Assembly: GCF_012843435.1 (NCBI RefSeq)
Contig: NZ_JABAFC010000001.1
Location: forward strand, 124,001 to 188,000
Reading direction: 5' to 3'
DNA from: Psychrobacillus sp. BL-248-WT-3
GTDB lineage: Bacteria; Bacillota; Bacilli; Bacillales_A; Planococcaceae
Length of the DNA: 64,000 nt
Of this stretch, positions 24,351 to 28,140 are shown piece after piece (the first letter of the stretch is position 1; every line of letters begins with the position of its first letter). A model generated the notes under the pieces. The model did not search any database and was not told the DNA's origin. It saw only the letters and a list, made by a program, of their open reading frames with translations. The translations under genes and the position numbers were made by a program.

Positions 24351-24908
24351 ATGATTTCAGTAAATGATTTTAAAACAGGTTTAACAATTTTAGTAGATGG
24401 CGTTCTTTACCGTGTTCTTGATTTTCAACACGTAAAGCCTGGTAAAGGAGCAGCGTTTGTTCGTTCAAAACTTAGAAACTTACGTAACGGCTCTGTGAAC
24501 GAAAAAACATTCCGTGCTGGTGAAAAAGTAGAAAAAGCACAAATTGATAACAAAAAAATGCAATATCTTTATGCAAGTGGAGATCAACATGTATTCATGG
24601 ATACGGATTCATACGAGCAATTAGAGCTTAATGAAAACCAAATCGAATATGAGTTGAAATTCCTACGTGAAAACATGGAATTACAAGTAATTCAATACCA
24701 AGGAGAAACACTTGGAGTAGAATTACCTAAATCGGTAGAGCTAGAAGTTATTGAAACGGAGCCAGGAATCAAAGGAGATACTTCTGGTGGTGGATCTAAA
24801 ACTGCTAAATTAGAAACTGGTTTAGTTGTAACAGTACCTCTATTTATTAATGTTGGTGACAAACTAATTATTAATACAGATGAAGGTTCATACGTTTCAA
24901 GAGCTTAA
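24351..24908 (+). CDS. efp: Translation elongation factor P
   Basis: EF-P of 185 residues, which binds ribosomes stalled at polyproline and helps peptide bond formation. It has three beta-barrel domains; the modification loop [17 protein letters not shown] carries Lys near 32, the residue modified in many bacteria. Full family length, ending ...EGSYVSRA. Start ATG behind GGAGGGAAATA. Cotranscribed with yqhT. A terminator follows and separates it from spoIIIA. Confidence 0.97.
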
Positions 24909-24920
24909 GAGACTTTTTAA

Positions 24921-24959
24921 AAGACATCAAGAGGGGAAACCTCTTGATGTCTTTTTTTT
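24921..24959 (+). terminator. Terminator after efp
   Basis: AAGACATCAAGAGG / CCTCTTGATGTCTT perfect stem, GGAAA loop, then T8. Confidence 0.95.
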
Positions 24960-25145: not shown

Positions 25146-25175
25146 TTCATATTCTCCACCTGTCCAACATATAGT
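25146..25175 (+). promoter_or_regulatory. Sigma-E-type promoter directly before spoIIIAC
   Basis: TTCATATT (25146-25153), 14-nt spacer, CATATAGT (25168-25175). Both elements and the spacing fit the mother-cell sigma-E consensus (roughly KMATATT and CATACAMT). The first coding region after it is spoIIIAC, 26 nt downstream, so in this genome the operon starts there. Confidence 0.75.
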
Positions 25176-25200
25176 ACGTAATAGGGAAGGGGGAGGCATT

Positions 25201-25410
25201 GTGGAACTTCACGATGTACTTCGAGTTGCGGGTATAGGCTTATTGATAGCAATTCTTCACTTATTTTTTGAATCGACTGGAAAAAAAGAGTTTGCATTCT
25301 TCTTGTTTTTTGTGGGTTATATTTACATGACTATTGAGTTACTACGTTTGCTTAGGCTGTTCTTTTATGAAATTTCCTCATTTTTAGAATGGCTTGTTAT
25401 GACGAGTTAA
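25201..25410 (+). CDS. spoIIIAC: Stage III sporulation protein AC
   Basis: Small membrane protein of 69 residues of the SpoIIIA-SpoIIQ channel between mother cell and forespore. It has two helices with the family core VAGIGLLIAILHLFFESTGK and FLFFVGYIYMTIEL. Start GTG behind GGGGGAGG. It is the first gene of the operon here; in B. subtilis spoIIIAA and spoIIIAB come first, and neither is present between efp and this gene. Confidence 0.85.
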   Translation: MELHDVLRVAGIGLLIAILHLFFESTGKKEFAFFLFFVGYIYMTIELLRLLRLFFYEISSFLEWLVMTS

Positions 25411-25413
25411 CAA

Positions 25414-25797
25414 ATGATTGTCTATATTACTATCATTGTTGCATTTTGCTTGTTGCAGTTAGTTAAAGAAACCTACCCCAAATTTCATTCCCTAATTTAT
25501 ACTATTTATATTTTTCTTTTTTTAACTTACCTCTCCACTTCGGTCATTATTCCTTTTATAAACCAGTATATTTCAAACGTACCGGTCGCCATTCTACCTA
25601 TTGTGAAATTGCTATTATTTTCAGTAATCCTATTATTTATCTCACAAATAATAGAAGAGCTGCTCGAAGACTATGAATATACTAGTTTAGCCTCACTAAT
25701 TACAATTACGACCAAGGCAATATTACTTGTTGTATGGATTCAGCATATGGAACCATTTTATCAAAAATTTTTTTCATTTATGGGACTACTCTCTTGA
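25414..25797 (+). CDS. spoIIIAD: Stage III sporulation protein AD
   Basis: Membrane protein of 127 residues with predicted helices near 2-16, 24-44, 58-78 and 92-112; usual SpoIIIAD length. ISQIIEELLEDYEYTSLASL resembles the conserved central part of the family. Gene starts 3 nt after spoIIIAC. The AC-AD pair is thought to form a membrane platform of the channel. Confidence 0.8.
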   Translation: MIVYITIIVAFCLLQLVKETYPKFHSLIYTIYIFLFLTYLSTSVIIPFINQYISNVPVAILPIVKLLLFSVILLFISQIIEELLEDYEYTSLASLITITTKAILLVVWIQHMEPFYQKFFSFMGLLS

Positions 25798-25811
25798 AGG
25801 AATGAGCAGTA

Positions 25812-26723
25812 ATGGAAGAATTAATTGCAACAATCTTGCAACCCGCGAAAGAAGTACTGCAAACGTTTGTTTATATTCTCCTGTTCGGTTTTGTATTTAT
25901 GTGTTTAGAATGGCTTATTCCCAGTAGCAAGCGATTATTTAAGTTATTGTTTATTCTTATTATTTGTTTTTATTGCTTAGAGCCAGCTTTTCGCTCAGTA
26001 AAGATGATTCAAGTAGTAACAGGTGAACTCGTTAATGTGTTTATAGGAGTATATCCAGTATTAACTGCTGGAATAGCACTGTCGGGTGGCGCTTTTCTTA
26101 TTACTTTATGGAATCCAGTTGTAATGCTCTTTGCCTCTTTTACTAGTATTGTGGCAGACAAGATTATGATTCCAGCCTTATTGTCAGCCTTTATATTTGA
26201 TCTTATGACTAGAATTCAACCTTCTATATCTTTTTCTCGAATGTCTGACCTAATACGAATGACTTTAGTTGGGGCTACCTCGATTATTCTCGTATTATAT
26301 AGTCTGTTTATAACCGTAAACGGTGTAGTAACCTGGTCAGTAAGTGGTGCTGTAAACGAAACTGTAAAGAGATTAATCTCCAATAATATTCCCTTTGTCG
26401 GTTCCTTGCTTACAGAGAGTATTAGTACGATGAAAAGCTACTCATCTACTGCTGCTGCTGTCACTGGGAATTCTGTTTTGATATCAATTCTAGTTCTTAT
26501 TTCTATTCCAACTATTCAAACGATCCTGATTGCTTTTCTCTACCGATTTCTAAGTGCTATTCTTGAGCCTTTTGTAGATGGACAAATTAGTGGACTATTA
26601 GACGATATTGGAAAAACGCTATTTGTACTTTCTATCATTTCCGTATTAATAGCCTTTGCCTTTTTCTTTACAGTGATATTAATCATGCTTTTCGCCAAAT
26701 TATTGATAGGTGTGAAGGGATAA
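25812..26723 (+). CDS. spoIIIAE: Stage III sporulation protein AE, lacking the secreted N-terminal region
   Basis: Multi-pass membrane protein of 303 residues; the membrane part aligns by eye with the B. subtilis family (PVLTAGIALSGG, LWNPVVMLF, LISNNIPFVGSLLTE, LAFAFFFTVIL-type ends). B. subtilis SpoIIIAE has about 399 residues and starts with a signal peptide and an extracytoplasmic region of roughly 90 residues that is missing here. The start ATG has AAGGAATGAG before it, and the space to spoIIIAD is only 14 nt, so no longer start is possible. Its stop overlaps the spoIIIAF start (TAATG). Confidence 0.8.
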   Translation: MEELIATILQPAKEVLQTFVYILLFGFVFMCLEWLIPSSKRLFKLLFILIICFYCLEPAFRSVKMIQVVTGELVNVFIGVYPVLTAGIALSGGAFLITLWNPVVMLFASFTSIVADKIMIPALLSAFIFDLMTRIQPSISFSRMSDLIRMTLVGATSIILVLYSLFITVNGVVTWSVSGAVNETVKRLISNNIPFVGSLLTESISTMKSYSSTAAAVTGNSVLISILVLISIPTIQTILIAFLYRFLSAILEPFVDGQISGLLDDIGKTLFVLSIISVLIAFAFFFTVILIMLFAKLLIGVKG

Positions 26724-26878
26724 TGTTTAACTTCTCTACATTGCTATATGGGATTTTAATGATTGTCATAATCGGAGAGATTCTATCTATTCTAATTGAG
26801 CATTTGGACAAGGAGAAGACGGGCTTTCTTATAAAACTTTCTATAATCTCATGGATTATCTCCTTTTTCTTCATATAA
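26723..26878 (+). CDS. spoIIIAF: Minimal SpoIIIAF-like protein (two membrane helices only)
   Basis: ORF of 51 residues lying exactly where spoIIIAF belongs and translationally coupled to spoIIIAE by TAATG. It has two hydrophobic helices (about 5-25 and 34-51) joined by IEHLDKEKTG. That is the layout of the first 60 residues of SpoIIIAF, whose remaining ~140-residue soluble ring-building domain is absent. The next gene starts 21 nt later, so nothing is hidden downstream. It was not called by a length-limited ORF search. Identity rests on position and topology, not on clear sequence similarity. Confidence 0.6.
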   Translation: MFNFSTLLYGILMIVIIGEILSILIEHLDKEKTGFLIKLSIISWIISFFFI

Positions 26879-26899
26879 ATAGATTGTCCTGCATAAAGT

Positions 26900-27358
26900 A
26901 TGTTATCCAATATGAAAAGAAGGGTGAACACTATCTCATTAAAAAAAAAACCCACTTTTCGTTTTGTAGTAATAAGTTTAGCGGTTTTGGTTATTAGTCT
27001 CTTATTTTCAGAGATTTTCGGACTGACGGATGATGTAAATAAAAACACTAGCCCACCAGAGGTTCACACAAAAGATGAGCTTTCCGCTATATTGGAAAAA
27101 ATCCATGGGGTTGGAAAAGTATCTATTTACTTTCATTACGCAGAACGAGCTGAAAATAAAACGGAAAGTGATTTATCATTTTTCCAATGGACAAGTGACA
27201 GCAAGATGGAAAAAGAAGAACTGATTGGAATACTGGTAGTTGCGGAAGGAGCGAGCGATAAACGTATAAAAAATAATCTTATTAAAACCCTTTCATCTGT
27301 ATTGCAAATATCTCCACATCGAATAGTTATAGAAGAAATGGAATTGGAGGATAAATGA
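26900..27358 (+). CDS. spoIIIAG: Stage III sporulation protein AG, short form
   Basis: Single-pass membrane protein with helix at about 23-41 and an extracytoplasmic domain of about 110 residues, 152 in all against about 229 in B. subtilis. The family's split ring-building fold is visible: ELSAILEKIHGVGKVSIYFHY, then after a short acidic linker ELIGILVVAEGASDKRIKNN and LSSVLQISPHRIVIEEM. The long insertion between these halves, which forms the inner beta-barrel of the B. subtilis ring, is reduced to about 20 residues. Start is uncertain: ATG at 26900 or 26912, neither with a clear ribosome site. Confidence 0.8.
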   Translation: MLSNMKRRVNTISLKKKPTFRFVVISLAVLVISLLFSEIFGLTDDVNKNTSPPEVHTKDELSAILEKIHGVGKVSIYFHYAERAENKTESDLSFFQWTSDSKMEKEELIGILVVAEGASDKRIKNNLIKTLSSVLQISPHRIVIEEMELEDK

Positions 27359-27359
27359 T

Positions 27360-27893
27360 ATGAACATTAAAAAAAGATCCGTATGGTTTTTAACTTTACT
27401 AAGCTTAGTGGCAGTAGTGACGGTGTATTATGCAACAGAAAAGCCATCCCCTTTTGATGGAATAGCCCTATTTTCTAATGACTCAGTTGATGATGTGAAA
27501 TTGGTAGAAACATCCTCAACGAATGAAGAATCATTTGTTTCTCACAGTAATCAATATGAAGAATTACGTATGGAAGTGCAGGAAAAACGTTCACAGTTAC
27601 ATGAGCAATTAGAATCTAAGGTCGCTTCAAATGATTTCTCTCCAGAAGAAAAAAATGAAGCATACAACGAAATTGAACAATTAGTAAAGATAAACTCTAC
27701 AGAAGCGATGTTGGAGCTAATTATAAAATCATTAGGATATGACGATGCACTTGTTCGTATTGACCAAAACAAAGTGCTGATCGATGTAGTTTCAAATGAA
27801 CAATCTTCAAAAAAGGCTGATGCTATTATATACGCAGTTAAGCGAGAATACCCTCAAGCATACAATGTTGAAGTGAAATTTGACGGACTATAA
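27360..27893 (+). CDS. spoIIIAH: Stage III sporulation protein AH
   Basis: Bitopic protein of 177 residues; helix at about 8-25 after MNIKKRS, a long acidic coiled-coil region (about 60-115) and a C-terminal ring-building domain with LIIKSLGYDDALVRIDQNKVLIDVVS. It is the mother-cell partner of forespore SpoIIQ. Length is near normal, unlike its neighbours AE, AF and AG. Start ATG follows GGAGGATAAATGAT at the spoIIIAG end. Confidence 0.9.
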   Translation: MNIKKRSVWFLTLLSLVAVVTVYYATEKPSPFDGIALFSNDSVDDVKLVETSSTNEESFVSHSNQYEELRMEVQEKRSQLHEQLESKVASNDFSPEEKNEAYNEIEQLVKINSTEAMLELIIKSLGYDDALVRIDQNKVLIDVVSNEQSSKKADAIIYAVKREYPQAYNVEVKFDGL

Positions 27894-28025: not shown

Positions 28026-28140
28026 CCGGACGCTTTCCGCGGGGGAGCGATAAGCCACCACCCATCGCTGACGCGCGTGGTTGTGATGTCTTATCTGTCT
28101 CCCTCCTCCAGCGGAGTCGCCGTCTGGCGCTGCAATCAAT
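28026..28140. repeat. Bacillales-type palindromic intergenic repeat
   Basis: Starts GGACGCTTTCCGCGGG and ends GCGGAGTCGCCGTC...GCTGCAATCAAT. The GC-rich block stands out in an AT-rich spacer. The ends are partly inverted (GGACG / CGTC and CCGCgg / GCGG). Similar blocks are widespread between genes in Bacillus-related genomes, from general knowledge. A second copy near 38145 shares TGTGATGTCTTA. Confidence 0.7.

Follow-up and report, generated by a model that had tools for sequence, protein, structure and literature searches.

Can a SpoIIIA-SpoIIQ complex work without its ATPase, SpoIIIAA? The question is raised by a stretch of 64,000 nucleotides (nt) from Psychrobacillus sp. BL-248-WT-3 (contig NZ_JABAFC010000001.1, positions 124,001 to 188,000; hereafter the window), in which the spoIIIA operon consists of six plus-strand genes, AC-AD-AE-AF-AG-AH, flanked by efp and accB. 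It is still argued whether this complex is a channel that secretes under power, a tube for passive feeding or a zipper between membranes (PMC12720343). Our results show that neither the motor gene spoIIIAA (AA) nor its platform gene spoIIIAB (AB) is found in this genome, and that all six remaining genes are under purifying selection in Psychrobacillus. We consider it rather likely that they encode a working, reduced, motor-less SpoIIIA-SpoIIQ complex that acts as a passive conduit or docking scaffold.

Searches for SpoIIIAA and SpoIIIAB in the genome and its family

The initial annotation described a cut-down operon that starts at spoIIIAC and has neither spoIIIAA nor spoIIIAB. Profile searches of the strain's own genome confirm this, as neither SpoIIIAA (PF19568) nor SpoIIIAB gave a match there and no AA-AB pair was found elsewhere. 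The SpoIIIAA search, which does find AA in Bacillus subtilis, gave matches in 0 of 200 genomes drawn from the family, which we take to be Planococcaceae/Caryophanaceae in the wide sense (NCBI places Psychrobacillus in Bacillaceae), and in 0 of 261 genomes of the order, several of them single-contig. The order set spans 19 genera, the same number as the family draw, and the two sets are therefore nearly identical here. For SpoIIIAB, 0 of the 200 family genomes gave a match above cut-off, and three weak matches (21.8-27.1 bits) lie in open frames of 340-2955 amino acids (aa).

While AA is found in none of the order genomes, SpoIIIAE is retained in 151 of the 200 family genomes (13 of 19 genera), and the compact set is therefore no local damage. 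In an even draw of 250 genomes from the class, 177 carry AE and 164 carry AA. Every one of the 163 AE-bearing genomes outside the family has AA as well, and another genome there has AA but not AE; in the family, AA was found in 0 of 14 AE-bearing genomes. The AE scores are bimodal: among the matches listed, those from the family lie at 67.8-128.6 bits (E 1e-18 to 1e-37) and the others at E 1e-65 to 1e-112. SpoIVA occurs in 154 of the 200 family genomes. These comprise the 151 AE-bearing genomes and three genomes of genus g2 whose matches are weaker; the remaining 46 have neither protein. Since SpoIVA and AE co-occur in 151 family genomes, the operon is retained where sporulation genes are retained.

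Frames for AC, AD, AE, AG and AH are present in every one of the 50 family loci examined, of which 30 come from the family AE search and 20 are further loci. An assembly error or a deletion private to this strain, which would have undone the original reading, is ruled out by these 50 loci and the 261 order genomes: the deletion is common to the family loci, hence no strain-specific loss. It is hardly credible that AA and AB are present and were missed, either because they are too divergent or because they lie in an assembly gap. AC, AD and AE are highly divergent, with AE scores down about threefold, and the assembly of the strain consists of 91 contigs, both of which would make an oversight easier. 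However, AA at AE-like divergence would still reach about 100 bits by our estimate, the 261 genomes without it include single-contig ones, and a mere 292 nt separate efp from AC in the window. The efp-AC stretch was also inspected in the loci of 20 relatives, where it holds a nitronate-monooxygenase-like gene (several genera, by reading), an antisense open reading frame (ORF) or nothing. It contains no ATPase by our reading, and a replacement gene at this position was rejected.

Two further sporulation proteins were searched for in the same genomes. SpoIIM gave no match in the strain's own genome and none above cut-off in the 200 family genomes, where four weak matches all fall in one genus without AE. 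GerM gave no match in the own genome either. Its family matched in 45 of the 200 family genomes, 31 of these above a low cut-off, and eight of the 45 lie in genomes without AE. As all scores are at most 31.8 bits and most frames are about 400-470 aa long, we did not accept these matches as GerM.

One genome in the draw, filed in genus g19 (G053; 87% completeness), carries two different spoIIIAE loci, on contigs C61 and C162. The AG of its locus L137 resembles by eye the AG of genus g10, and G053 is perhaps a mixed assembly.

Layout of the reduced operon

The canonical order AC, AD, AE, AG, AH between efp and the acc genes is found in the window. The efp gene, its terminator and the promoter-like motif before AC were already described in the initial annotation and are confirmed at the positions below.

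24351-24908: efp, upstream border of the spoIIIA set
24919-24955: strong terminator hairpin after efp (-24.7 kcal/mol, z -6.9)
25146-25175, plus strand: P1, sigma-E-like promoter TTCATATT-N14-CATATAGT, precedes spoIIIAC
25201-25410, plus strand: spoIIIAC, 69 aa, GTG start
25414-25797, plus strand: spoIIIAD, 127 aa, very divergent
25812-26723, plus strand: spoIIIAE, 303 aa, N-terminal part of other AE proteins absent
26723-26878, plus strand: spoIIIAF remnant, 51 aa, just two membrane helices
26870-26899, plus strand: P2, internal sigma-E-like promoter TTCATATA-N14-CATAAAGT, overlaps the AF stop and precedes spoIIIAG
26912-26962, plus strand: predicted hairpin, AG Shine-Dalgarno (GGG) paired with codons CCC-ACT-TTT-CGT
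26933-27358, plus strand: spoIIIAG, 141 aa, probable non-AUG start ATC, ring-building core without insert
27360-27893, plus strand: spoIIIAH, 177 aa
27895-27919: terminator hairpin after AH

AC, AE and AH match PF06686 (25.9 bits, cut-off 24), PF09546 (105.7 bits) and PF12685 (64.8 bits), respectively, and AH also matches 3uz0_A, the SpoIIIAH of the SpoIIQ complex (E 7.3e-17). An iterated profile built from the window AD recovered AD in 20 of 20 outgroup loci. The AF ORF had no spore-family match in Pfam or NCBIfam, and profile-profile comparison was required. The 12 closest named loci are 11 from Psychrobacillus and one filed as Bacillus sp.

Rfam gave nothing above gathering score between 24800 and 28500, and two sub-threshold matches lie near the end of AH. 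In the AH-accB gap (28029-28140), a G+C-rich stretch (GACGCTTTCCGCGGG...) stands amid an A+T-rich region. It looks like a dispersed repeat and occurs as a single copy in the window.

Trimming of AE, AF and AG

The proteins that remain have themselves been shortened. AE had been described as missing about 90 N-terminal residues, and the comparison with other loci bears this out: the median length is 303 aa in the 50 family loci and 395.5 aa in 30 outgroup loci, and 69 of the 74 missing columns fall within the first 93 residues of the outgroup protein.

The 51-aa AF ORF covers only residues 4-48 of full-length AF and is without the soluble ring domain. In profile-profile comparison, a profile of 16 short ORFs matched these residues with Prob 95.2 and E 2.9e-8, and reached at most 2.8 against five other SpoIIIA families and at most 1.0 against five column shuffles. 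AF is therefore reduced, not lost. By our reading, a two-helix ORF with a canonical start lies behind AE in 42 of the 50 family loci; in five of these it is short. Of the eight remaining loci, seven belong to Psychrobacillus and have an open AF frame without a canonical start, and no AF-like ORF was seen in L039. Among 18 distinct Psychrobacillus loci, 16 have no ATG, GTG or TTG near the AE stop, and at a distance suited to ribosome binding they mostly carry ATC or ATT; ATG is present in the window and in P. faecigallinarum.

AG retains both halves of the ring-building motif. Of 52 columns that are present in more than 80% of 20 outgroup AG proteins but in less than 20% of 21 family AG proteins, 35 make up the insert between the two halves, which we take to be the part that forms the beta-barrel. 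The AG sequence matches 5wc3 (SpoIIIAG) at E 1.9e-4, in agreement with a retained ring-building core. The AG model, built from 13 sequences, has a mean predicted local distance difference test (pLDDT) score of 67.5, with most core blocks at 79-89, and folds as helix-strand-strand-helix-strand with a low-confidence loop where the insert would be. Foldseek placed 5wc3 on top at E 1.3e-3, with nothing below 0.001, and VIA-align ranked it second (Z 8.8, root-mean-square deviation 2.9 over 75 residues) after a zinc-transporter domain (Z 9.1). Since unrelated folds score equally high, the sequence match outweighs the structure match. A cylindrical beta-barrel is part of the AG ring whose structure has been solved (PMC8092281).

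Start codon of spoIIIAG

The earlier length of 51 residues for AF stands, but the roughly 150 residues given for AG, counted from ATG 26900, need revision. The window AG probably starts at ATC 26933 and comprises 141 aa, as suggested by a survey of part of the genus members (26 Psychrobacillus loci, 18 of them distinct; 13 of L005-L027 plus L095-L106). In 26 of 26 loci, a Shine-Dalgarno-like AGAAGGGTGA is followed by an ATN codon where the conserved protein sequence begins, and in the 18 distinct loci this codon is ATT in eight, ATC in five, ATA in four and ATG in one. The ATG upstream is out of frame in 13 of the 18, and in 12 no ATG, GTG or TTG remains ahead of the membrane helix. As an indel between the upstream ATG and the ATN codon separates the window from its nearest relative, the in-frame state of the window's ATG looks accidental. 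A programmed frameshift was considered for Psychrobacillus AG and is disfavoured by the placement of the Shine-Dalgarno and by indels between it and the ATN codon.

Judged from the sequence, Psychrobacillus AG appears to start at AUU, AUC or AUA (once AUG), placed in the loop of a predicted hairpin that would hide the Shine-Dalgarno. The Shine-Dalgarno is paired with codons 7-10 in the predicted fold of all 18 distinct loci, at energies merely 0.5-2.6 standard deviations below shuffles. Codons 8-11 show no synonymous variation, and neither do 17 of 58 invariant codons overall; the chance of this is about 0.006 for a stretch picked after being seen. Translational control or an RNA thermometer is a possible function of the predicted hairpin. 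None of the titles among the matches listed in a general literature search concerned a non-AUG start of spoIIIAG, which was not sought by name.

A separate case is genus g17, in which all four loci examined (L051, L052, L135, L136) have an AG frame devoid of ATG, GTG and TTG upstream of the helix. At the 5' end, a candidate start TTG-GAA-AAG, served by a good Shine-Dalgarno, is shifted by one frame and is followed by A/T-rich, slippery-looking runs. A -1 frameshift is conceivable in this genus.

Promoter-like motifs before AC and AG

The motif TTCATAW-N15-CATAWNNT, modelled on the first promoter, has exactly two matches when both strands of the 64 kb are scanned, at 25146 and 26870. We label both sigma-E-like by a consensus that we assume to be that of sigma-E. 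In 100 shuffles the motif matched 0.04 times on average and never twice; with one mismatch permitted, the three matches in 64 kb are not above chance. A looser motif precedes AC in 27 of the 50 family loci and occurs between AE and AG in 38; all 14 Psychrobacillus loci have it at both places. When 156-nt stretches of the window were drawn at random, 0.4% contained it on one strand and none on the other. In B. subtilis and Clostridioides difficile, AG-AH are known to have an internal promoter (PMC4605598), and a second promoter before AG is therefore not new.

Selection, rate change and SpoIIQ

The ratio of nonsynonymous to synonymous substitution (dN/dS) was computed for eight Psychrobacillus pairs, some with dS values above 1, and was 0-0.05 for AC, 0.05-0.17 for AD, 0.02-0.05 for AE, 0.09-0.26 for AF, 0.13-0.26 for AG and 0-0.11 for AH. 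Rate changes were studied as mean tree distances between 21 family loci (the window and L037-L056, ten genera by our count) and 20 outgroup loci, in which EF-P was found in 14 and AccB in 19. The family-outgroup and outgroup-outgroup distances are 3.63 and 1.02 for AC, 4.20 and 0.65 for AD, 4.43 and 0.75 for AE, and 3.88 and 1.32 for AG; distances above 3 are near saturation, though identities show the same direction. For AH, EF-P and AccB the corresponding values are 2.71 and 2.37, 0.73 and 0.59, and 1.50 and 1.37. AC identity is 73% within the family and 23% to the outgroup, and AH identity is 55% within the family, 29% to the outgroup and 32% among outgroups. Hence, AC, AD, AE and AG changed abruptly, and AH, the partner of SpoIIQ, changed at an ordinary rate. 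AC made one jump and was then held, and the fast change of AD and AE continued. The parts that shifted would be those once in contact with the lost motor, and the part that stayed is AH, which faces SpoIIQ.

These data bear on whether the operon is a relic that decays as its lineages lose sporulation, a possibility that we regard as very improbable. AD, AE and AG are accelerated, and one Psychrobacillus species, nc5.1, is reported to have no visible endospores (PMC13228071), as decay would predict. On the other hand, dN/dS is well below 1, the five frames are kept in all 50 family loci, and 46 of the 49 family genomes without AE are also without SpoIVA. Moreover, Lysinibacillus and other Planococcaceae with the same gene set are reported to form spores (PMC7924749; PMC3533761). 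The initial annotation had argued for an evolved compact version and not random decay, and the 50 loci, the selection on six genes and the recurrence of both promoters uphold that view.

SpoIIQ was sought as the partner of AH and is present in the genome (L035, 1120-1809, 229 aa; match to 3tuf_B, E 2.8e-24). Its gene comes after a gene read as spoIID.

A probable motor-less complex

The complex is very likely compact and functional, and we infer that it is passive. It was probably fixed once in the family ancestor and kept since. For a channel without AA, the initial annotation had suggested either another supply of energy or a complex that serves mainly as a scaffold. The loss of the motor, the AF soluble domain, the AG insert and the AE front would favour a non-powered machine, from which ATP-driven channel activity would be absent. 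During engulfment, a mother-cell membrane unit of AC-AD-AE(-AF) would carry a slim AG/AH ring, and this ring would dock on SpoIIQ. Once docked, the complex would hydrolyse no ATP; it would act as a passive conduit or a docking scaffold and not drive secretion. More tentatively, and with somewhat less than even confidence, we propose that a single step in the ancestor took away the ATPase together with the AG barrel and left a family-wide motor-less complex, and that AG of Psychrobacillus is in addition kept low by its non-AUG start in a hairpin with the Shine-Dalgarno.

The compact complex could still be powered by another ATPase, either pilus/competence-derived or unrelated, or by the membrane potential, and we find this unlikely. 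The strong purifying selection on AC, AD and AE despite motor loss would fit a new energy source, and the genome does encode PF00437 secretion ATPases (three above cut-off and one weak match). However, the three are read as PilB, PilT and ComGA from their length and arrangement, AB as the platform for such a motor was likewise not found, and the efp-AC stretch of the 20 relatives offers, by our reading, no ATPase candidate.

A second alternative is that nothing is transported, and that the proteins act as a zipper or scaffold, in which AH and SpoIIQ hold the engulfing membranes and sigma-G is supported only indirectly. We consider this doubtful but a fair contender. It would agree with the ordinary rate of AH, the presence of SpoIIQ and the loss of the AG insert and the AF soluble domain, and ratchet and scaffold models are found in the literature (PMC12720343; PMC4605598). 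A pure scaffold would nevertheless not explain why AC and AE are so strongly constrained (dN/dS at most 0.05), and direct SpoIIQ-SpoIIIAH contact is reported to be dispensable in B. subtilis (PMC12720343).

Several points weigh against a passive, motor-less complex. AC, AD and AE remain strongly constrained, which may mean that the complex still transports actively with energy drawn from elsewhere. Sigma-G activity and an intact forespore depend on AA and its ATPase motifs in B. subtilis (PMC2703783). Jeotgalibacillus malaysiensis is reported as an exception that has AA and lacks AC and AE (PMC7924749); its genus may lie outside the order sampled here. The Psychrobacillus species without visible endospores counts here as well. 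The gene assignments have weak scores in places: AC reaches 35.4 bits with TIGR02848 (cut-off 56.65), AD 17.1 bits with PF06686, below its cut-off, and AG 53 bits with TIGR02830 (cut-off 147.7), and the AE structure model (pLDDT 44.4) is too low for use. The largest tree distances are close to saturation, as stated above. Finally, the promoter pattern before AG was found in 0 of 20 outgroup stretches; as this is despite the reported internal promoter of B. subtilis, the pattern is no general test for sigma-E. In favour of a motor-less complex, by contrast, a Walker A mutation in C. difficile AA matters and a Walker B mutation does not, and ATP binding seems more important than hydrolysis (PMC6934232); ATP hydrolysis is therefore not universally required.

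If the complex is indeed motor-less, ATP-driven secretion is not the indispensable task of the SpoIIIA-SpoIIQ machine. Evolution would have stripped the motor, its platform, a single ring domain and the insert of AG from a family with members known to sporulate, and would have kept the rest under selection, and the spore formers of this family, with their stripped complex, would be a natural test of whether a powered channel is required.

Comparison with known systems

The spoIIIA operon of B. subtilis presumably lies between efp and accB, and the outgroup loci have their spoIIIA set in the same place. The window resembles B. subtilis in the AC-to-AH order, in the SpoIIQ partner and in the ring-building fold of AG and AH. 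B. subtilis has a front sigma-E promoter and a second one before AG, and the window has sigma-E-like motifs at both places. It differs in that AA and AB are not found, AF is without its soluble domain, AG is without the insert, AE is about 90 residues shorter at the front, and GerM and SpoIIM gave no match. The alpha-beta-beta-alpha-beta ring-building core of the window AG is common to the SpoIIIAG 30-mer ring (5wc3) and the FliF S-ring; 5wc3 has a long insert between the two halves, and the window AG does not.

Non-canonical AUU and AUA starts are described in Staphylococcus aureus and B. subtilis, where AUN likewise follows a Shine-Dalgarno, of the extended type, and is conserved among relatives. 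With a strong Shine-Dalgarno, such starts give about a tenth of the AUG yield in S. aureus (PMC13009471). Unlike those cases, the gene here is spoIIIAG, its Shine-Dalgarno lies in a predicted hairpin, and the start is a predicted one.

Reduced gene sets have been reported before. In Lysinibacillus sphaericus C3-41, gerM, spoIIB, spoIIM, AA, AB, AD and AF were listed as missing in 2012, in a genome that the study set aside as insufficiently reliable (PMC3533761). In 2021, AA, AB and AF were reported missing in all sampled members of the Lysinibacillus-Planococcaceae clade despite spores, together with SpoIIM, SpoIIB and GerM, and the mechanism was left open (PMC7924749). The same source gives AA, AB and AF as missing in Erysipelotrichia, possibly a second, independent trimming of the operon. 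The absence of AA, AB and AF (with GerM and SpoIIM) in Planococcaceae/Lysinibacillus is thus already published, and the overall interpretation of the initial annotation holds for compactness and not for the novelty of its main point. As in our data, AA, AB, GerM and SpoIIM are absent from these published sets, and spores are reported. The two studies list AF, and in part AD or AG, as absent, whereas here AD and AG were both found and AF survives as two helices. Furthermore, the 2012 genome was deemed unreliable, while the pattern here spans all family genomes searched. Collectively, our results confirm the loss on more genomes and revise the record of AF, AD and AG for this group. They also add how the proteins were trimmed, the jump in rate, the sigma-E-like promoters and the probable start of AG.

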